DNA of 40,738 bases from an uncultured Bacteroidota bacterium (lineage in GTDB: Bacteria; Bacteroidota; Rhodothermia; Rhodothermales; Salinibacteraceae): contig CAKZLV010000347.1 of NCBI GenBank assembly GCA_937127285.1, positions 1 through 40,738 of the forward strand, in the 5' to 3' direction. Of the stretch, positions 6,315 through 40,620 are shown one piece after another. The translations under genes and the position numbers were made by a program. Position 1 is the stretch's first letter. Each line of letters opens with the position of its first letter. The notes below the pieces were generated by a model. That model was not told the origin of the DNA. It worked only from the letters and a program-made list of their open reading frames with translations, and searched no databases.

Positions 6315-6499
6315 GTGGGGAGCAGGACGCCAGGTGAAAAGGATACCGTCGAACTGGACACATAGGAGAACCGGGGAGCTTCCGGATCTCTCCCATCAAC
6401 TTCTTCTATTCATGCCCCTTTCGAAACCGGTTCTGAAGCCGGGACCGGGGGCCGTCGGGCGTCGCCGTAGAGCCTGCTATCCGCATGCCCCAGATACTG

Positions 6500-6589
6500 G
6501 ACCGGCTTTCGGTCGGCCGGCTTCCGGCGGGCCGGCTTTCGGCAGGCCGGCTTTGGTTGGGTTGGATTTCGTTGGGTTGGATCCGTGCT
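6500..6589. repeat. 15-bp tandem array, six degenerating units
   Basis: Units of exactly 15 bp follow each other at 6500, 6515, 6530, 6545, 6560 and 6575. The first four share GGCCGGCTT (the first with A for G at its second base), and the last two share GGTTGGAT, so the array drifts in sequence along its length. It lies in the 376-bp gap between divergent exchanger and pgi genes, where promoters of both should be. The array is in frame with pgi, but translation through it gives a repetitive Gly-Arg-Leu stretch unlike any Pgi. I see no other feature in the gap. Confidence 0.85.
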
Positions 6590-6691
6590 ATCCGTTATCG
6601 TGCGAAGACACGGGAGCGGCACCGCTTTTTCCGAACGTCCCGGCGATCCTCCCGACCGATCACTTCCTCACCACCGACCTCCACTCGATCG

Positions 6692-8047
6692 ATGATTCGA
6701 CTTGACGACGCGCCCGTTCACGAGTTTCTCCCCGACGACGCCCTCTCCGACCAGATCCCGGACCTTGCCGACGCCCACCGCCGCCTTCTCGACGGCGAGG
6801 GAGCCGGCAGCGACATGCTGGGATGGCGCGACCTGCTGTTGAACCCGGACGACGCGCTGATCGAAGACATCGAGGCAACCGCCGCCCACCTGCGCCGTGA
6901 TGCCGATGTGCTCTTGTGCCTGGGGATCGGGGGATCCTATCTCGGCGCACGGGCCGTCATCGACGCCCTGACTCCGTACTTTCCGTCGCCCGACGCCTCG
7001 TCTCCCGGTTCCGAAGCAGCAGACGCGGACGACGACGTCGACGGCCGGAGCACGGACCCGAGCCGCCCGCCGGAGATCCTCTTTGCCGGTCATCACACCA
7101 GCGGCCGCTACCTGCGCGAACTGCTCGACCGGCTGGAGGGAACGTCCGTCTACGTAAACGTCATCTCGAAGAGCGGGACGACCCTCGAAACAGCCCTCGC
7201 CTTCCGCTTCGTCCGCCAGTGGATGGAGGATCGGTTCGCAGATGCCAGTGACCGCATCATCATCACGACCGATCCCGAGACGGGTGCCCTGAACGCGCTC
7301 CACGCCGAGCGAAACTACAAGAAGTACGTCATTCCGCGGGATGTGGGCGGCCGGTTTTCGGTGTTGACTCCGGTCGGGCTCTTGCCCATTGCTGCGGCCG
7401 GCATCGACATTCGCTCCCTGTTCTACGGCGCCGTATCGATGTGCGAGTCGCTCAGCCGGCGAGAGCCGGTGGCGTCAATGGATGCCCTGCGGTATGCCGG
7501 GATTCGCGCTTTGCTGCTGGAGCAGGGCTACGATCTGGAAGTGCTGGCGGTGTTCGAACCGGCGCTTCGCGGCGTCGGCAGCTGGTGGCAGCAACTCTTC
7601 GGCGAGAGCGAGGGGAAGGACAACACCGGCCTGTTTCCCTCCGTCGTTCAGTACACCACCGACCTCCACTCGCTGGGGCAGTACATGCAGGACGGGCAGC
7701 GGACGATGATGGAGACCTTTCTGATGGCGGAGGACGACGGCGGCGACCTCGACATTCCCGCCAGCGAGGACAACCTCGACGACCTCAATTACGTGGCCGG
7801 CACGTCGCTGTCGGACGTCACACGCGGGGCCTATGAAGGGACGCTTCGGGCCCACACAGACGGTGGCGTCCCGTCCATTACCCTCTGGATGGACCGCATC
7901 GACGCGGAATCGGTGGGCGCGCTGCTGTACTTCTTCGAGCACGCAGTCGCCGTCAGCGGGTATCTCATCGGCGTCCATCCGTTCAATCAACCGGGCGTGG
8001 AGGACTACAAGCGGGAAATGTACCGGCGCCTGGGTCGCGACGACTGA
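6692..8047 (+). CDS. pgi: Glucose-6-phosphate isomerase
   Basis: It interconverts glucose 6-phosphate and fructose 6-phosphate in glycolysis/gluconeogenesis. The 451-aa length matches the short (Bacillus/Thermotoga-type) Pgi. Visible motifs are 'LCLGIGGSYLGARAV' near residue 75, the phosphate-binding 'SKSGTTLET', 'GESEGKDNTGLFPS' with the catalytic glutamate region, and 'GVHPFNQPGVEDYK' with the C-terminal lysine. An acidic low-complexity insertion (about residues 103-127, rich in D, E, S) lies in a surface loop and is a halophile trait. The ATG at 6692 is chosen over an upstream one at 6485 because the extra 69 residues come from the tandem repeat array. The gene ends right before the DnaA-box cluster. 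Confidence 0.95.
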   Translation: MIRLDDAPVHEFLPDDALSDQIPDLADAHRRLLDGEGAGSDMLGWRDLLLNPDDALIEDIEATAAHLRRDADVLLCLGIGGSYLGARAVIDALTPYFPSPDASSPGSEAADADDDVDGRSTDPSRPPEILFAGHHTSGRYLRELLDRLEGTSVYVNVISKSGTTLETALAFRFVRQWMEDRFADASDRIIITTDPETGALNALHAERNYKKYVIPRDVGGRFSVLTPVGLLPIAAAGIDIRSLFYGAVSMCESLSRREPVASMDALRYAGIRALLLEQGYDLEVLAVFEPALRGVGSWWQQLFGESEGKDNTGLFPSVVQYTTDLHSLGQYMQDGQRTMMETFLMAEDDGGDLDIPASEDNLDDLNYVAGTSLSDVTRGAYEGTLRAHTDGGVPSITLWMDRIDAESVGALLYFFEHAVAVSGYLIGVHPFNQPGVEDYKREMYRRLGRDD

Positions 8048-8100
8048 CAGCCGCTATACCAGTCAGACCCGCGTCGCCGCGGCCCCTCCCTGTGCTTTTC

Positions 8101-8516
8101 TTATCCACAATTTTGTGGATAACCGGTGGATAAGTGGGGAATAACACCTTAATAACACGGGAGTCATTCACGAAGCGCGATCGGCTGTGCATAACGGAAC
8201 CCTTCGTCCACCTCCGTCCCGAAGTTCTCAACACTGTGGATGAGTGTGCACAACCGGTCACGTGTTTTCCCCGATCTGACTGTGGATGACTGTGGAAACG
8301 TGGAAAACCGGCCGATTTCGGCCCCAAACGGCGTTTACCAGCATGGAATCCCGCTCTGTTTGTGGATAACTTCGGGGATGAGAGCCCGATTTATCCACAT
8401 CGGGAGCTCCGGCCTGTGGGTAGATCGGTTATCAACATATCCACAGCACCAACAACAACAAACACATTTTTGTACCCAAACCCAGATGCCTTGTACATAA
8501 CAGGGGATGTGGATAA
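8101..8516. other. DnaA-box cluster, candidate replication origin or DnaA-titration site
   Basis: Six perfect TTATNCACA boxes lie at 8101-8109 (+), 8114-8122 (-), 8186-8194 (-), 8361-8369 (-), 8391-8399 (+) and 8508-8516 (-). The first two form an inverted pair with 10-bp arms and a 2-bp spacer. One-mismatch boxes lie at 8125, 8235, 8245, 8281, 8429, 8437 and 8492. The stretch (8048-8740 between pgi and comEC) has no credible gene and is visibly more AT-rich than its surroundings. A run of CAA triplets (about 8449-8461) follows a box at 8437, and short inverted repeats follow at 8549-8600. The density exceeds that upstream of dnaA. Whether it is oriC, half of a bipartite origin, or a datA-like sink cannot be told from sequence. 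Confidence 0.8.
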
Positions 8517-8548
8517 CTCAACCAATCCGCGATACGGCTCACGGAGAA

Positions 8549-8600
8549 CTGATATACAGCAAATCCACCGATCTGAGACTGATATAGAAGGGTATATCAG
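8549..8600. repeat. CTGATATA repeats: two direct copies 30 bp apart plus one inverted copy
   Basis: CTGATATA occurs at 8549-8556 and 8579-8586, and its reverse complement TATATCAG at 8593-8600, giving an 8-bp stem with a 6-nt loop. The AT-rich repeats sit at the right edge of the DnaA-box cluster, where an unwinding element or a protein-binding iteron would be expected. They could instead belong to a comEC-side regulatory site, although comEC reads toward this region. Confidence 0.6.
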
Positions 8601-8740
8601 ATTGCAGACCGAGATATTCGGGTGTAGGAATACACGAGGTCGAGCCGGTGGCGAGCGAAGGTGCCTTCATGAAGCAATCCCATCAAGGGACGTGAAGGAG
8701 GAAACCGGAACGGCGGAATCCGCTGTCCCTCAACCGTTTC

Positions 8741-11242
8741 CTACTCACGCCAGGGGATCCGCCAGATTTCCTCTCCATCCGTCCGTAGCCACACCGCTCC
8801 CTGACGGGATGTAGAGTGAACGATTGCTCCGTACCTCTCCCAACGAGAGAGAACGTCGGAGTTCGGAAGGCCGAACCGGCCGTGCCGACCTACGCTGACC
8901 ACAGCATGAAGGGGAGCGCCCTTCTGCGAAACGCACTCGACAAACGGGATTCCACTGCTGGTCGAAGATCCGTGGTGGGGAACCTTCACGACGTGGCTAG
9001 ACAACATTCCTCCGTATCGGCGAACCAGCCACTGCTCTCCAGCCTCTTCGACATCTCCCGTCAGCAGCCACCGCGTGCTTCCGAAACCAATTCGAAGGAC
9101 GACGGACGCGTCGTTCTCGTGAAACGTGAGGGGGCGGGCGCCGCCGGGGGGCGGCGCAAGAACCTGAAGGACAAGTCCTCCACCTGCTTCGAGGATCTCT
9201 CCTGCCACCGCCGGCCGGTACGGCACCGACAGACGATCCAGGACGCGCCGGCTCTCCTCAAACAGTTCGGTTGACGCCTCCCAGCCGCTGGTCAGCACGG
9301 ACCGGACGTCCACCTCCCGAAGGAGTGTAGGAAGTCCCCCGAGGTGATCGCTGTCGGGGTGTGTGATGACAACAGCATCGAGGGTTCGAATGCCCCGGTG
9401 CTGCAGAACGGGGAGGAGGACGCGACGTCCGGCATCGCTGACGTGCGACCGCGGGCCGGTATCGACCAGGAAATGGCGATTGCCGGGAGTGCTGATGAGG
9501 ATGGCATCGCCGTGGCCCACATCCAGAAACACAACGTCCAGATGCGATCGGGACTCACCGGAGAGGACGGGGGTCCAGGCCCACAGACACAGAAATGCCA
9601 GGCTGGCGGCTCCCAGCCGCCAGCGCAGCCGAGGTCGGGGCCACTGCGCACCCATGGCCAGAAGAGAGGCGAGTGCAGAGAGAACAAACAGAGACAGGCC
9701 GGGGACAGCAAGAAGCCCCCAGTTGAACCACACCGCCCCCCACTGCGCCGTGTGAAGGAGTGCGCGAAGAAATACGTCAGCTGCTGTTCCGAACGCCGCT
9801 GCCGCCCCGGAGAGGACGCCGCCGGCGAGAACACACAGGATGCCGGCCGTCAACCCGGCCGCCGTCAGCGGGATGGCGGGAAGGTTCAAGACCACTCCAC
9901 CAATTTGCGCCTGGCCGAAATGAGCCAGCAGAACGGGACCCGTTCCCAGTGTTGCGGCGACCGACACGGACAGCAGGGAACTCGCCCACCCGCCCACCGG
10001 ATGAGCGAGAACCGCTTCCGGGATTCGCTCCGACAGGCGCGGGTGGAGGGTGATGATCCCGGTTACGGCCGTCATCGATAACTGAAAGCCAGCGTCGAAA
10101 AGAGCCAGAGGACGGTGCATAAGCAGCAGGAGCGCCGCCACGCCGAGACTGTTGAGGGTGTGCGGCGACCGCTGAATAAGGAGTCCGCCGATAAAGACGC
10201 TCGCCATCACCACGGCCCGGACGACCGAGGGCCGGGCCCCGGTCAGCAGCATGTAGAACAGGAGGACGCCGATGGTGAGGATGGCTCGGGCTCCCTCGCG
10301 CACCGGCCGGGGCAGCCGAACGCGCATCAGCAGCGGCCGCAGGAGGCGGTAGAGGATCATCCCCACCAGCAGCACATGCAGTCCCGACACGGCCAGCAGG
10401 TGCATCAGACCGGTGTCGACGAACTGCTCTTGCTGCTGGCCGGTGAGGCTGCTTCGGTTACCGAGAAGGAGCGCCCGCAGGATGCCCCCCGACGCGTCCG
10501 AAGGAACGAACCGCCGGATGTGCCGGTCGACGTATGCGCGTCCGCGCACCGTAATCTCCTGAAGGCTGCTGCGCGTATCGCCGAGGACGCGAACGCCGGC
10601 AGGCGTCTGCACGAACAGCGTGCAGCAGATTCCGCGTCGGTGGAGATAGGCTCCGTAGTCGAACCCTCCCGGATTGCGGGGGCCGGGGGCCGGTCGGAAG
10701 GTCCCCTGAAGCTCGACGCGATCCCCTTCGCGGAGGGTCGGGTAGGACGGTGTGGATATCCACAACGGGTTGTGGAGAGTCGCCCGCAGGCGACCGGTGG
10801 CGTCGATTGCGGCGGCGGGCGGGGCATCCGCTCTCCGGATGGTTGATACCGCCAGGGTAAACCGCCAGCTTCCGGATCGCTGTTCGGGAGGATCGGCAAT
10901 GGTGCCCGCCACGACGGCGTCGAGGCCGGTTTCCCCTGCCGTTGCGGCCAGAACGGCAACGGAGCGTGGGGGCGGGCTCTGGATGGCCGCCGTGCGGGCG
11001 CCGCCGGCGGCGACGGCCAGCACCGCCAGGCTCCCGACCCGGGCCAGAGGGGCGAGAGAGAACAGGCGAGATCGTTCGCGAACCGACGCACCCGCCATCC
11101 CGCCCACCCCGGCCCCAGCAACACCGAGCCAGCCCCCGAGTCCGATGGACAGAGACACCTCCAGGGCGGTCCCGACCGCAAACGTTGCGGCAACGAGCAG
11201 GGCCGGATAGGTCGACCAGTGAATGTGGGAATCCGGCTGCAT
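8741..11242 (-). CDS. comEC: ComEC/Rec2-family DNA uptake channel
   Basis: An 833-aa inner-membrane protein for transport of single-stranded DNA in natural transformation. The N-terminus has several membrane spans, then a soluble OB-like domain ('GDRVELQGTFRPAPGPRNPGGFDY', about 175-200). The polytopic competence domain follows from about residue 250 ('LLHLLAVSGLHVLLVGMI'-like segment). From about residue 560 a metallo-beta-lactamase-like domain carries 'VFLDVGHGDAILI' and the metal motif 'THPDSDHLGG', proposed in this family to be a nuclease. All three domains are present, so it appears intact. No other competence genes are adjacent. It reads toward the DnaA-box cluster, converging with pgi. 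A 14-bp palindrome made of two overlapping DnaA-like boxes lies inside the gene at 10751-10764. Confidence 0.93.
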   Translation of the reverse strand: MQPDSHIHWSTYPALLVAATFAVGTALEVSLSIGLGGWLGVAGAGVGGMAGASVRERSRLFSLAPLARVGSLAVLAVAAGGARTAAIQSPPPRSVAVLAATAGETGLDAVVAGTIADPPEQRSGSWRFTLAVSTIRRADAPPAAAIDATGRLRATLHNPLWISTPSYPTLREGDRVELQGTFRPAPGPRNPGGFDYGAYLHRRGICCTLFVQTPAGVRVLGDTRSSLQEITVRGRAYVDRHIRRFVPSDASGGILRALLLGNRSSLTGQQQEQFVDTGLMHLLAVSGLHVLLVGMILYRLLRPLLMRVRLPRPVREGARAILTIGVLLFYMLLTGARPSVVRAVVMASVFIGGLLIQRSPHTLNSLGVAALLLLMHRPLALFDAGFQLSMTAVTGIITLHPRLSERIPEAVLAHPVGGWASSLLSVSVAATLGTGPVLLAHFGQAQIGGVVLNLPAIPLTAAGLTAGILCVLAGGVLSGAAAAFGTAADVFLRALLHTAQWGAVWFNWGLLAVPGLSLFVLSALASLLAMGAQWPRPRLRWRLGAASLAFLCLWAWTPVLSGESRSHLDVVFLDVGHGDAILISTPGNRHFLVDTGPRSHVSDAGRRVLLPVLQHRGIRTLDAVVITHPDSDHLGGLPTLLREVDVRSVLTSGWEASTELFEESRRVLDRLSVPYRPAVAGEILEAGGGLVLQVLAPPPGGARPLTFHENDASVVLRIGFGSTRWLLTGDVEEAGEQWLVRRYGGMLSSHVVKVPHHGSSTSSGIPFVECVSQKGAPLHAVVSVGRHGRFGLPNSDVLSRWERYGAIVHSTSRQGAVWLRTDGEEIWRIPWRE

Positions 11243-19766: not shown

Positions 19767-22430
19767 TTAGAACGGTGCGTCTTCCTCGAACGACGGCTCG
19801 CCGGCGCCTTGTCCGCCGCCGTCGCCGTCGAAGCCGCCACCGGACGGCGGGGGGGCGCCGCCCTGCACATCGCCGCCGTCGAAGCCGCCGCCCATGCCGG
19901 GATCGTCGTCGTAGCGGCTCGTCAGGTTTTCGAAGCGGGCGTACTGCTTCACGAAGGCAAGCTCGACGGTGCCGATGGGGCCGTTACGCTGCTTCTCGAT
20001 GATGATTTCGGCGATGCCCTCGGTCGAGTTGCCCTGTTCGTCGACTGTGATGCCGTATCGCTCGGCGCGGTAGATGAACGATACGACGTCGGCGTCCTGC
20101 TCGATGGAGCCGCTTTCCCGCAGGTCGGAGAGTTGGGGGCGCTTGTCGCCGCCGCGGTTTTCGACGGCCCGGTTGAGCTGCGAGAGCGCGACGACGGGCA
20201 GGTCCAACTCTTTTGCCAGCCCCTTGAGCGAACGCGAGATGTGGGCGATCTCCTGCTCGCGGTTGGCGTTGTTGCGCAGCCCGCCGGAGGCCTGCATGAG
20301 CTGCAGGTAGTCGACGATGACGAGGCCGACGTCGTGTTCGGCCTTCAGGCGGCGGCACTTCGCGCGCAACTCCAGAACGCTCAGGCCCGGCGTGTCGTCG
20401 ATAAAGATGTCGGCCTCGCTCAGCTTTCCGGCCGCCCGGGCCAGGCGCTGCCAGTCCTCGTTGTTCATCTGCCCGGTGCGCGCCTTGTGCGCGTCCACAC
20501 GGGCCTGAGAGGTAAGAAGCCGCTGCGCGAGCTGCTGCGCGCCCATCTCCAGCGAGAAGATCGCCACCCCGGTCGGCTTCTCCGGATGCGTCGCGGCGTT
20601 CAGGCCGCAGGCGAGGCTAAACGCGGTGTTGTGCGTTACGGTGCCGTCGGCCAGGAGGAAGCGACCGTTGCCGTCGAGCGTAAACCCGTAGTAGTCGCCG
20701 ACGCCATCGGGTTCCACCTCGATGCCGGTTACGCGCCAGTTCCGCCGGTCCGTCCATTCGTCGGCCTTTTTCCGGTCGACGCGAACAGGAATCTCGTCGA
20801 CGTTGCCGTTGAAGCGGACGCGATAGGCAGTTGAGGTATGATCGATCGACGCGATGCGGACCGTCTTCTCGGTCAACGACGTTCGGTACCCGAGGGTGTC
20901 GCACAGGTATTTGATTTGCTCGGCGAGACGCCGGCTGGACTGGGTGATTTCGTAGGTGCCGCCGTGCCCGGCGTTCAGGTGTCCATCACTATCGATCAGT
21001 CCGGCGAGCAGGCGCAACCGCTTCTCGCGGGAGTTTCCGATGTAGAGGTGGGGAATGTGCTTGTCGTTCAGAACGCCGAGGGTCCGGAGAACGGCTTGAA
21101 CCGAGCGTTTCTTGTCGGCAAGTCCTTGCGTTCCACTCCGAATCAGATACGAGGGGCAGGACCGGTCGGCGTCGTGGATGCGCAAGGTGTCTCCCCGGGC
21201 ATCGGCCGTCTGTTGCAGATAAGAGACGACCCCATCGTCCGTTGAGTAGATCCGGGCATTGTCCGCCTTCCCGTCTCCAAGCCAGAGCCCAAGCAGATAG
21301 GGATCGAGGGGGACGGGTTGTTCGGGAAACGACGCCGGGGCCTTAAAGCCCTTGTTGTCGTCCTTCCACCTGTCGGATTTCTGGAGGTAGTCGCGCACGG
21401 AAATGTCCGTGACCGATCCGCGCGGCCGGCGGTCGCCGCTCCGGCTTTTTTTGAGGCTCAAGATGTGGCTCTCGTTGACGCGGTAGTCCATCCCGCGCTT
21501 CTGGCGGACCCAGTACATCGGCTCTCGGCCACGGGCCAGAGATTGGACTCTGCGGGGCGATCCGTCGTCTCCCATCAGCCGGTCGCCCACCTCGATGTCC
21601 TCGACGGGTTTCGTTCTTCCGTCGTACATCATGACGGGTGTGCCCCTGCCCAGGCACTTGCCCATACTGGGCCGCGCAGCGACGATGATCAGGTCGCTGT
21701 CCTGCCAGCCGCTCGTCAGCTTGTCGAGCTTCGGGAAACCGCTCGGCACGCCGGTGATGGCCTCGTCCTGACCGTGGATGGACTCGAGGTGCTCGAAGGT
21801 CTCCTTCACCACCTCGTTGAGCGGCGAGGCGGCCTTGCGCAACTGCGTGTCCGAGATCTGAAAGATTTCGCTCTCCGCTTCGTCGAGCAGCTCGAAGGCG
21901 TCGGCACCCGGGTCGTAGGCCTTGCCCACCAGCGACGTCATCGTCTCGATCATTTTGCGGAGAAGAGATTTCTCCGCAATGATGCGAGCATGGTACTCGA
22001 CGTTGGCCGCGGAGGCGACCTGGGTGGTCAGCTCCGTCAGATAGTACGGCCCGCCGATGTCGTCGAGCTGGTCGCGCCGCTTCAGCTCCTCGGTCAGCGT
22101 GACGAGGTCGACCGGATTGCCTCGTTCGAAGAGGCTGCAGATCGCGCCGTAAATTTTCTGGTGCTTCGCGCTGTAGAAGGCTTCCGGCGGGAGCACCTCG
22201 ATGGCCTGCGGGATGGCCTCCCGCTCGATCAGCATCGCGCCGAGGACGGACTTCTCGACATCGGTCGCCTGCGGCGGCACGCGGCCGGACTGCTCGTGGA
22301 TCTTCTGCGCCTCGGCCCGCCGACGGTCGCTCTGCCGACCCCGCATCTTCTCGAGGGGATACGAGGGCTGCGAGCTGTCGTCAATGTTCATGCGCTGCTG
22401 CGACTCGTCGTTCTCCGCCATAAACGCCAT
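19767..22430 (-). CDS. dnaB: Replicative DNA helicase DnaB, interrupted by an intein
   Basis: The 887-aa precursor should yield a 544-aa hexameric fork helicase after removal of a 343-aa intein. The N-terminal domain ('VPPQATDVEKSVLGAMLIE', about 51-70) and linker are normal. The RecA-like domain is split at Walker A: 'AARPSMGK' ends at residue 258 and 'TAFSLACGLN' resumes at 602, so the unspliced protein cannot bind ATP properly. After the intein come 'IFSLEMGAQQLAQRLL', Walker B 'LVIVDYLQLM' and 'VVALSQLNRAVENRG'. The tail is Gly/Asp-rich ('GGGFDGDGGGQG'). The start could be 22430, 22421 or 22391; no Shine-Dalgarno decides. dnaB stands alone here, 126 bp downstream of the next minus-strand gene end... 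upstream sequence holds no other gene. Confidence 0.96.
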   Translation of the reverse strand: MAFMAENDESQQRMNIDDSSQPSYPLEKMRGRQSDRRRAEAQKIHEQSGRVPPQATDVEKSVLGAMLIEREAIPQAIEVLPPEAFYSAKHQKIYGAICSLFERGNPVDLVTLTEELKRRDQLDDIGGPYYLTELTTQVASAANVEYHARIIAEKSLLRKMIETMTSLVGKAYDPGADAFELLDEAESEIFQISDTQLRKAASPLNEVVKETFEHLESIHGQDEAITGVPSGFPKLDKLTSGWQDSDLIIVAARPSMGKCLGRGTPVMMYDGRTKPVEDIEVGDRLMGDDGSPRRVQSLARGREPMYWVRQKRGMDYRVNESHILSLKKSRSGDRRPRGSVTDISVRDYLQKSDRWKDDNKGFKAPASFPEQPVPLDPYLLGLWLGDGKADNARIYSTDDGVVSYLQQTADARGDTLRIHDADRSCPSYLIRSGTQGLADKKRSVQAVLRTLGVLNDKHIPHLYIGNSREKRLRLLAGLIDSDGHLNAGHGGTYEITQSSRRLAEQIKYLCDTLGYRTSLTEKTVRIASIDHTSTAYRVRFNGNVDEIPVRVDRKKADEWTDRRNWRVTGIEVEPDGVGDYYGFTLDGNGRFLLADGTVTHNTAFSLACGLNAATHPEKPTGVAIFSLEMGAQQLAQRLLTSQARVDAHKARTGQMNNEDWQRLARAAGKLSEADIFIDDTPGLSVLELRAKCRRLKAEHDVGLVIVDYLQLMQASGGLRNNANREQEIAHISRSLKGLAKELDLPVVALSQLNRAVENRGGDKRPQLSDLRESGSIEQDADVVSFIYRAERYGITVDEQGNSTEGIAEIIIEKQRNGPIGTVELAFVKQYARFENLTSRYDDDPGMGGGFDGGDVQGGAPPPSGGGFDGDGGGQGAGEPSFEEDAPF
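20628..21656 (-). other. DnaB intein with LAGLIDADG homing endonuclease
   Basis: It spans residues 259-601 of the precursor (343 aa). The splice junctions are textbook: it begins with Cys (CLGRGTPVMMYDG, block A), contains block B around 'RVNESHILSL', and ends 'GRFLLADGTVTHN' with the terminal His-Asn followed by +1 Thr. Endonuclease motifs are 'LLGLWLGDG' (about 379-387) and 'LLAGLIDSDG' (about 474-483), both with their acidic residue, so the homing enzyme looks intact. The insertion point is between Lys and Thr of the Walker A motif. Whether it matches the known Rhodothermus/cyanobacterial DnaB site I cannot confirm from memory. Confidence 0.95.
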
Positions 22431-34117: not shown

Positions 34118-34485
34118 CCCTCCTCTGGGAATGCGCCTCTCCAGGGGGCGCCTCCCCCCGTGCTGAGCGATAGGACCGATGCCGCAGACGCACCGACCGC
34201 CGCCGACCCAGCCTGCCGGTGCCCGCGGTCCACACCTGCAGCTCCGACGATTCGGGACGGACCGATTCGGGACAAACAATGCCTCTTTTTTTGTGCTGAT
34301 TTTTTGTGCTGACGCCTCTTCGTGCTGTCTATATGAATATTTGTAGATGGAGGTTATGCATACGGTTGCTCGTGTGTCTACACAACCCGGAGGAGGAATA
34401 GGCATCCCGTACGGCGCCTCTCCTCCATCTTTTCGTGTACACCTCAGAGGCTCTCGGTCCCTGCATCGTGTCTCCCGGCGTCCGT

Positions 34486-38000: not shown

Positions 38001-38036
38001 CTTCAGTGGGCGCGAACGCGCTTCAGCGGGCGCGAA
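38001..38036. repeat. 20-bp direct duplication overlapping the dnaA stop codon
   Basis: CTTCAGTGGGCGCGAA at 38001-38016 and CTTCAGCGGGCGCGAA at 38021-38036, spaced by CGCG. The second copy includes the dnaA stop codon, so the first looks like a duplicate of the gene's 3' end. Confidence 0.82.
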
Positions 38037-39651
38037 GCTCGATCTTGCGCCCGATCGTTTCGACGAGGCTGCGAAACGGCTCGTCGGTCTCCATCTGATC
38101 CTCGACGGACTGGTTGGCGTGGATCACGGTGGAGTGGTCGCGCCCTCCGAAGTGCAGCCCGATCGTTTTCAGGGAGTGCTGCGTCCACTGCTTGCAGAAG
38201 TACATCGCGATCTGGCGGGCACGGACGGCTTCTCGCTTGCGGGTGCGGTCGCGCACAAGGTCTTCCGCCAGGTCGAGATACTCGCAGACGATGCGCTGGA
38301 TTTCTTCGATCGTCAGGTTGACCTGTCGGTCCTCCACCAGGTCGTGCAGGACGTCCTTCGCCAGGGCGAGGTCGAGGTCGCGCTGGTGAAGGGTGCTGTG
38401 GGCGAGCAGCCGGATGAGTGCCCCCTCCAGTTCGCGAATGTTGCTTTTGATGTTGTGAGCGATGAACTCGATCACCGCCTCGTCGAGGTCGACGCCGTCG
38501 TCTTCGGCTTTGCGCTGCAGAATCGCGATTCGCGTTTCGAGCCCCGGAGGCTGGACGTCGGCCGAAAGGCCCCACTGGAATCGCGACAGCAGCCGCTTTT
38601 CGATGCCCTCGATGTCGCGCGGCGGTCGGTCGGCCGATAGTACGATCTGTCGTCCACTCTGATGCAGGGCATTGAAGATGTGAAAGAATTCCTCCTGCGT
38701 CTTTTCCTTTCCGCTAAAGAACTGCACGTCGTCGACGATCAGCACGTCGATCTGGCGGTAGAACATCGAAAACTCTCCGATGCGGTTGCGCCGGATCGAC
38801 TGGACGAAGTCGGTCGTGAAGCGCTCGCTCGACACGTAGAGGACCGTGCGGTCGGCAGTACCCTGCGCGTAGTTACCCACCGCCTGGATCAGATGCGTCT
38901 TCCCCAGGCCGACGCCGCCGTAGACGAGAAACGGGTTGAAGCTGGTTCCTCCCGGTTCCCGCGCAATGGCCCAGGCGGCCGATCGGGCAAGCCGGTTGCA
39001 GTCGCCCTCGATAAATCGTTCGAAGGTGTAACTCCGGTTCAGGCGGCTGTCGATTTCATTCGTCTGCAGTCCAGGAATGGCGAACGGATTGCTGACCGGA
39101 GGATCGTTCTCCCCCGCCCGGGGGCCGTCCGTAGAGGGACCGGCAGCCGAGGCGCGCGTTGCGTCCGACGACGTTGCGCCCGTCGGGTCCGAGGTGGCCG
39201 GCTGCCGTCCGTCCCGGCGTGCAGCGGCCGGGCCGTTCCGGGAAACGCCCGGTGCGGCATCCGGACCGGCGGCGCGCGGCGAGCCGGATGCCTCGGGGGC
39301 AGGAGGGGCGCCGTCGGAATCGGGGCGACGGGCCGGGAGCTGCATCGATGCCCCTTGGTCGGGATCGGACGGGTCTTCTCGCTCGATGACGACATCGTAG
39401 AAGAGGCGCCCGCTCGGGCCGAGCACGTGGGTGACCGTCTTGCGCAGAAGCGAGAAGTAATGCTCCTCCAGCCACTCGTAGTAGAAACGGCTGGGAAGCT
39501 GAATGGTCAGCTTCGTGATACCATCTTCCTCCGTCAGAGACTGCGCCTGCAACGGCTCGAACCAGGTCTTGTAGCTCTGGCGACTCACTTGTGCGCGGAT
39601 GAGATCCAGGCACTGCTCCCAGACCTGTGGTGCCGTCGGGTTCGGACTCAT
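38023..39651 (-). CDS. dnaA: Chromosomal replication initiator DnaA
   Basis: It binds DnaA boxes and opens oriC. The 542-aa product has domain I (1-90, 'VWEQCLDLIRAQVSRQSYKTWFEPL' features), a long disordered domain II (about 92-204, rich in P, A, D, S), the AAA+ domain III with Walker A 'GGVGLGKT' at 245-252 and Walker B 'VLIVDDVQFF', and domain IV with the box-recognition signature 'FGGRDHSTVIHA' near the end. Domain II is longer than in E. coli. The start at 39651 fits the conserved domain I. The 5' flank holds a MITE-like element and then DnaA boxes, so autoregulation could be altered by that insertion. Confidence 0.98.
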   Translation of the reverse strand: MSPNPTAPQVWEQCLDLIRAQVSRQSYKTWFEPLQAQSLTEEDGITKLTIQLPSRFYYEWLEEHYFSLLRKTVTHVLGPSGRLFYDVVIEREDPSDPDQGASMQLPARRPDSDGAPPAPEASGSPRAAGPDAAPGVSRNGPAAARRDGRQPATSDPTGATSSDATRASAAGPSTDGPRAGENDPPVSNPFAIPGLQTNEIDSRLNRSYTFERFIEGDCNRLARSAAWAIAREPGGTSFNPFLVYGGVGLGKTHLIQAVGNYAQGTADRTVLYVSSERFTTDFVQSIRRNRIGEFSMFYRQIDVLIVDDVQFFSGKEKTQEEFFHIFNALHQSGRQIVLSADRPPRDIEGIEKRLLSRFQWGLSADVQPPGLETRIAILQRKAEDDGVDLDEAVIEFIAHNIKSNIRELEGALIRLLAHSTLHQRDLDLALAKDVLHDLVEDRQVNLTIEEIQRIVCEYLDLAEDLVRDRTRKREAVRARQIAMYFCKQWTQHSLKTIGLHFGGRDHSTVIHANQSVEDQMETDEPFRSLVETIGRKIELRAR

Positions 39652-40397: not shown

Positions 40398-40620
40398 TTA
40401 TCCACACATTCACGGAGCGACGTCGGTAAAAAAGAACCAGGCTCCGACCGACGCCCTCGATATCCACAAGTTATCCACAAGTTTTCAACGTTACGTAAGG
40501 TTCTGGATTACAAACCTTACGGAAAAACAGGGGGCGTTGTGATTTCCAGGATGGAGTCGGCGGTCTGGCGCTCTGCCCTTGTACCTTTCGTCCCTTCACT
40601 CCGTGCTCCGGTTATCCACA
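40398..40620. other. DnaA-box cluster upstream of dnaA, candidate oriC part
   Basis: Perfect TTATCCACA boxes lie at 40398-40406, 40471-40479 and 40612-40620, with a one-mismatch box at 40460-40468. The middle pair is part of an 11-bp tandem duplication ATCCACAAGTT (40462-40483). An AT-richer stretch with a TTACGTAA palindrome and CGTAAGG/CCTTACG arms (40494-40521) follows. The region from 40209 to the window end shows no gene; the origin may continue past 40738. Position next to dnaA-dnaN is the classic oriC place, though boxes are fewer than at 8.1-8.5 kb. Confidence 0.78.

Follow-up and report, generated by a model that had tools for sequence, protein, structure and literature searches.

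A DnaA-box cluster beside comEC as the probable chromosomal origin of a Salinibacteraceae genome, at a distance from dnaA

Where does a salt-loving bacterium begin replication when a dense group of DnaA boxes lies far from dnaA? The window (the whole 40,738-nucleotide stretch analysed here, contig C347 of an assembly of 370 contigs that is 88% complete) carries dnaA at 38023-39651 on the minus strand and, ~29.5 kb from it, a gap between pgi and comEC at 8048-8740. The sequence-only reading described a dense box cluster in this gap and left three explanations side by side: the real oriC with dnaA displaced, one half of a long-range bipartite origin, or a datA-like sink for DnaA. The first is strongly supported by a GC-skew switch at the cluster in relatives together with the conservation of the boxes. 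From box content, gene orientation and conservation, we consider it very probable that the interval 8048-8740 is the chromosomal oriC and that dnaA is displaced from it.

A box cluster with a putative unwinding core

The gap lies where the 3' ends of pgi (phosphoglucose isomerase; 6485-8047, plus strand, stop at 8047) and comEC (DNA uptake channel; 8741-11242, minus strand, stop at 8741) converge. As the sequence-only reading had it, the gap holds no convincing gene and is AT-richer than its surroundings, with 52% GC vs 64% in the window, and its six perfect and seven one-mismatch boxes are found at 8101-8516. The left array (8101-8289) comprises perfect TTATNCACA boxes at 8101 (plus), 8114 and 8186 (both minus) and one-mismatch boxes at 8125, 8235, 8245 and 8281 (all minus); the inverted pair 8101/8114 keeps its position in relatives. 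Two perfect boxes follow in the middle (8361-8399), at 8361 on the minus and 8391 on the plus strand, then two overlapping one-mismatch boxes at 8429 and 8437, and finally the distal minus-strand boxes (8492-8516) at 8492, with one mismatch, and 8508, which is perfect. The sequence TGTGGATAA(C) of the distal boxes, at the far side of the predicted melting stretch, is kept in most relatives. In the whole window, perfect boxes number 9 vs 0.07 expected from dinucleotide shuffles, and matches with at most one mismatch number 23 vs 5.0. Lying between two genes, the cluster could be thought to control the transcription of pgi or comEC. Both genes, however, terminate at the gap, so the boxes are in the promoter of neither. 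In addition, relatives can keep the cluster without having pgi next to it: G017 has its cluster in its own pgi-comEC gap, but in G014, G015 and G023 (G-numbers denote genomes of relatives) the only pgi matches are weak, distant and elsewhere. Transcriptional control thus has next to no probability in our view.

The two overlapping boxes form the predicted core of the cluster. These tandem boxes, TTATCAACA/ATATCCACA (8429-8445, plus strand), share one base and would be the double-strand anchor of an unwinding system. A 4-nt spacer, GCAC (8446-8449), leads on the same strand to the triplet repeats CAA CAA CAA CAA ACA CAT (8450-8467), at the place where outgroups have CTA-type DnaA-trios. The stretch 8446-8500, with 40% GC vs 64% in the window, is predicted to melt first; the least stable 46-bp stretches of the window lie elsewhere, tied between 8552-8597 and 34317-34362. 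The basal unwinding system (BUS) has been described for B. subtilis and many other bacteria (PMC8287927), and the architecture of the putative core matches it. The succession of one or two DnaA boxes and a spacer is found at 8429-8449; the window's core lacks a run of three or more adjacent triplets that carry a middle adenine (NAN) on the strand presumed to be engaged, and several outgroups have such a run (CTA CTA CTA).

A common block is found in every family member with the cluster: two tandem boxes followed by 4 nt, the triplet repeats and a T/A-rich run. A core pattern of tandem boxes, 4 nt and triplets, with one mismatch allowed, gave a single match in each of 49 genomes out of the 114 of the order, and the reversed pattern used as a control matched none in the same search. 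In the other 65 genomes the pattern was not found, through divergence or incomplete assembly. Outside the order, an exact CTA-type version was run on 131 more genomes of the class and matched only 2.

Conservation beside comEC and the GC-skew switch in relatives

The sequence-only reading proposed that the boxes be sought in close relatives, and there they are conserved, with aligned positions. Among the 27 genomes searched of the window's family in the Rhodothermales, which cover nine genera, 24 have comEC, and in 23 of these the cluster sits immediately beyond its 3' end; in the exception, G009, the core motif is on another contig. Box order and spacing are largely conserved across the family, and several genomes keep the same order and orientation. 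In all four closed or near-closed relatives, the cluster is the largest group of perfect boxes in the genome (6, 6, 4 and 10 boxes per 600 bp vs at most 3 elsewhere). In other families, most genomes that yielded both have the core within ~0.2-1.5 kb of comEC; it is on the 3' side of the gene or, in family f15, on the 5' side. Over all families, the core is not adjacent to comEC in G009, G045, G058, G059, G072 and G107.

The position of the skew minimum, another check proposed, was examined in relatives by reading tiles around the region and computing cumulative GC skew in seven genomes of five genera. In all seven, the local minimum coincides with the cluster, at a distance of 0.7-6 kb, and does not map elsewhere; dnaA is 10-150 kb away from it. 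The most telling single case is G016, where 150 kb separate dnaA (2.391 Mb), well inside one replichore, from the cluster (2.5446 Mb); the skew is negative across dnaA, reaches its minimum at 2,539,911 beside the cluster, and switches in the opposite sense between 0.32 and 0.5 Mb. In G015, a closed genome that we take to be Salinibacter ruber DSM 13855, the skew is still falling through dnaA (position 11) and continues down to 17.4 kb, beyond the cluster at 12.7-13.1 kb. The signal is weaker in two genomes of other families. In G061 the core is separated from the minimum by 30 kb, with dnaA 230 kb away; the switch of G045, beyond 2.44 Mb, falls outside the contiguous stretch that was sampled, at a distance of more than 40 kb from the core and closer to it than to dnaA. 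These two cases favour the core over dnaA and nothing closer. Inside the window itself, which comes from an assembly of 370 contigs, the skew is weak and has its minimum at 2144.

These data bear on the idea of a sink, in which replication would begin near dnaA and the cluster would titrate or inactivate DnaA. The datA locus of E. coli likewise gathers DnaA boxes away from dnaA, and the cluster described here resembles it in being rich in boxes, intergenic and tens of kilobases from the initiator gene. Unlike datA, which is not at a skew switch and has no unwinding core, this cluster is at the skew switch in relatives, where dnaA is not, so that it would not lie away from the replication start there. 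It also contains the tandem-box and triplet core, found once per genome and only at the cluster. S. ruber-like genomes, moreover, have no comparable box cluster near dnaA. It is mainly the BUS-like core and the skew that argue for an origin rather than a sink, which we regard as very unlikely.

The boxes on the dnaA side raise a different alternative, namely that they and the cluster act together as one long-range bipartite origin. The three perfect boxes that had been reported there are present at 40398, 40471 and 40612, with a one-mismatch box at 40460 (40398-40620, plus strand), and boxes upstream of dnaA recur in G002, G003, G004 and G016, which would fit a bipartite origin. However, the distance between dnaA and the cluster varies from ~10 kb (G004) to 150 kb (G016), and dnaA is on the comEC side of the cluster in the window and on the opposite side in G015. 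No triplet repeats accompany the dnaA-side boxes at 40398-40620, the unwinding core being unique to the cluster, and G015 lacks a perfect box immediately upstream of dnaA. We therefore see very little chance of a bipartite origin. The boxes upstream of dnaA probably serve dnaA autoregulation or titration, autoregulation being the simplest explanation. In the window (40398-40620), G002, G004 and G016, they are spaced near 11 bp.

The boxes, the core architecture, the conservation beside comEC and the skew coincidence in relatives can be read directly from the genomes; for an oriC at 8048-8740, they suggest the following course of events. DnaA made from the gene ~30 kb away would bind the box array at 8101-8399. 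A DnaA oligomer would then grow from the tandem core boxes across the 4-nt spacer and engage one strand of the triplets at 8450-8467. The AT-richer stretch at ~8446-8500 would open and the helicase would load there, so that the window's own chromosome would start replication within the interval.

Like the BUS-type oriC of B. subtilis, the predicted origin combines a cluster of 9-mer DnaA boxes with tandem boxes, a short spacer, triplets beyond it and an AT-richer stretch, and it coincides with the GC-skew switch (here in relatives). It differs in lying beside comEC instead of dnaA, and in the CAA/TAA triplets of the window and several related genera, which lack the middle adenine in the aligned register. 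An origin distant from the initiator gene is itself familiar, since the oriC of E. coli is at a distance from dnaA. The origin of Synechococcus lividus PCC 6715 also lies away from dnaA (PMC6323995). In contrast to these two, comEC stays the neighbour across most of the order while dnaA moves (10-150 kb, on either side; 230 kb in G061). A displaced dnaA alone is thus unremarkable, and what is newer in the proposed origin is its association with comEC across the order, together with altered triplets and a second motif. Our literature search found no paper giving the origin's location in Salinibacter or Rhodothermus; DoriC may hold a prediction. The assignment would place the origin in a lineage whose genome records start at dnaA, as that of G015 does. 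In addition, comEC synteny and the tandem-box/triplet core would offer a way of finding origins in Rhodothermales.

Altered triplets and DnaA residue 187

The first triplet is CTA, often repeated, in all 15 genomes of other families that were examined. Within the family, G004, G005, G006 and G024-G026 likewise carry CTA repeats, and in G023 a single CTA precedes CAA. At the corresponding position, CAA or TAA (TAG once) stands in the window, in G001-G003 and G009, and in the g7 genomes (Salinibacter, Salinivenus). On the strand presumed to be engaged, 3'-GAT-5' is thereby replaced by 3'-GTT-5' or 3'-ATT-5', the window reading 3'-GTT GTT GTT GTT-5', and the middle adenine of the DnaA-trios is therefore absent in the aligned register. 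In the S. ruber-like sequence TAATAATAACAA, shifting the register by one base keeps some middle adenines; in pure CAA repeats no register does.

In B. subtilis, the middle adenine of the trio contacts Asn187 of DnaA, and A-to-T changes in trios 1-3 impair initiation (PMC10721633). Variants of such triplets have already been suspected (PMC8287927). The closest solved relative of the window's DnaA by sequence is B. subtilis DnaA (8btg). The family has Thr at residue 187 (Ser in G023) and Ser at residue 202, where B. subtilis has Arg. Many outgroups, though not all, retain Asn187, and many of those that do have Ser202. It is possible, and we propose it only tentatively, that the Salinibacteraceae include altered DnaA-trios in which the middle adenine of the engaged strand became thymine after Asn187 had changed to Thr or Ser at the base of the family. 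A DnaA pocket that co-varies with the triplets inside the family was considered and rejected, as residues 187 and 202 are alike in canonical and altered members. Since residue 187 fails to separate the two groups, its link to the triplet change is only suggestive. If the proposal is true, it would describe a change in the specificity of origin opening that arose in nature and can be dated. The altered triplets would also provide a naturally occurring case for testing how strict the requirement of DnaA for the middle adenine is.

A second motif array and further observations

To the right of the core lies an array of YGRTATA-type sites (8548-8632), enriched and conserved in position: ACTGATATA at 8548 and 8578, GTATATCA at 8592, GATATTC at 8613 and GGAATA at 8627. 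Across relatives, the YGRTATA-type sites have roughly fixed offsets from the core (~+105, +135 and +146), and in many genomes the GATATTC...GGAATA pair follows at ~+167/+180. The motif was picked after viewing the alignment and its enrichment figures are thus descriptive: G[AG]TATA occurs 52 times in 5,320 bp vs 0.9 expected from the genomic background, and in the +70 to +210 stretch 50 times vs 7.2 in dinucleotide shuffles (17 vs 2.8 in other families). This second, non-DnaA motif array points to a possible further origin-binding factor.

Several genera of the family carry a DnaA paralog with 45-53% identity to the window's DnaA (G015 C1:1718074-1719723; G016 C4:413821; G014 C1:3580703; G000 C58:19475-21202). 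The five copies that were aligned have an intact Walker A motif, initiator motif and DNA-binding domain, and in three Salinibacter-type genomes the distance of the gene from the site opposite the origin is 0.6-3.5% of the chromosome. The second motif is unlikely to be the site of this paralog, as G023, G004, G005 and G024 have the motif and no paralog was found in them.

Perfect DnaA boxes also occur as pairs 148-149 bp apart, at 3347317/3347466 and 3547105/3547253 in G015, 2523644/2523792 in G016 and C280:7534/7682 in G000, with inner arms like ATAACGGA...TCTGTTATT. A role as rRNA promoters was rejected, as no rRNA turned up in the two stretches examined. In the window, the replicative helicase gene dnaB (19767-22430) carries an intein with a homing-endonuclease domain. 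In G015, a Bacteroidales-type small SRP RNA (C1:10482-10589) lies ~2 kb from the origin cluster.
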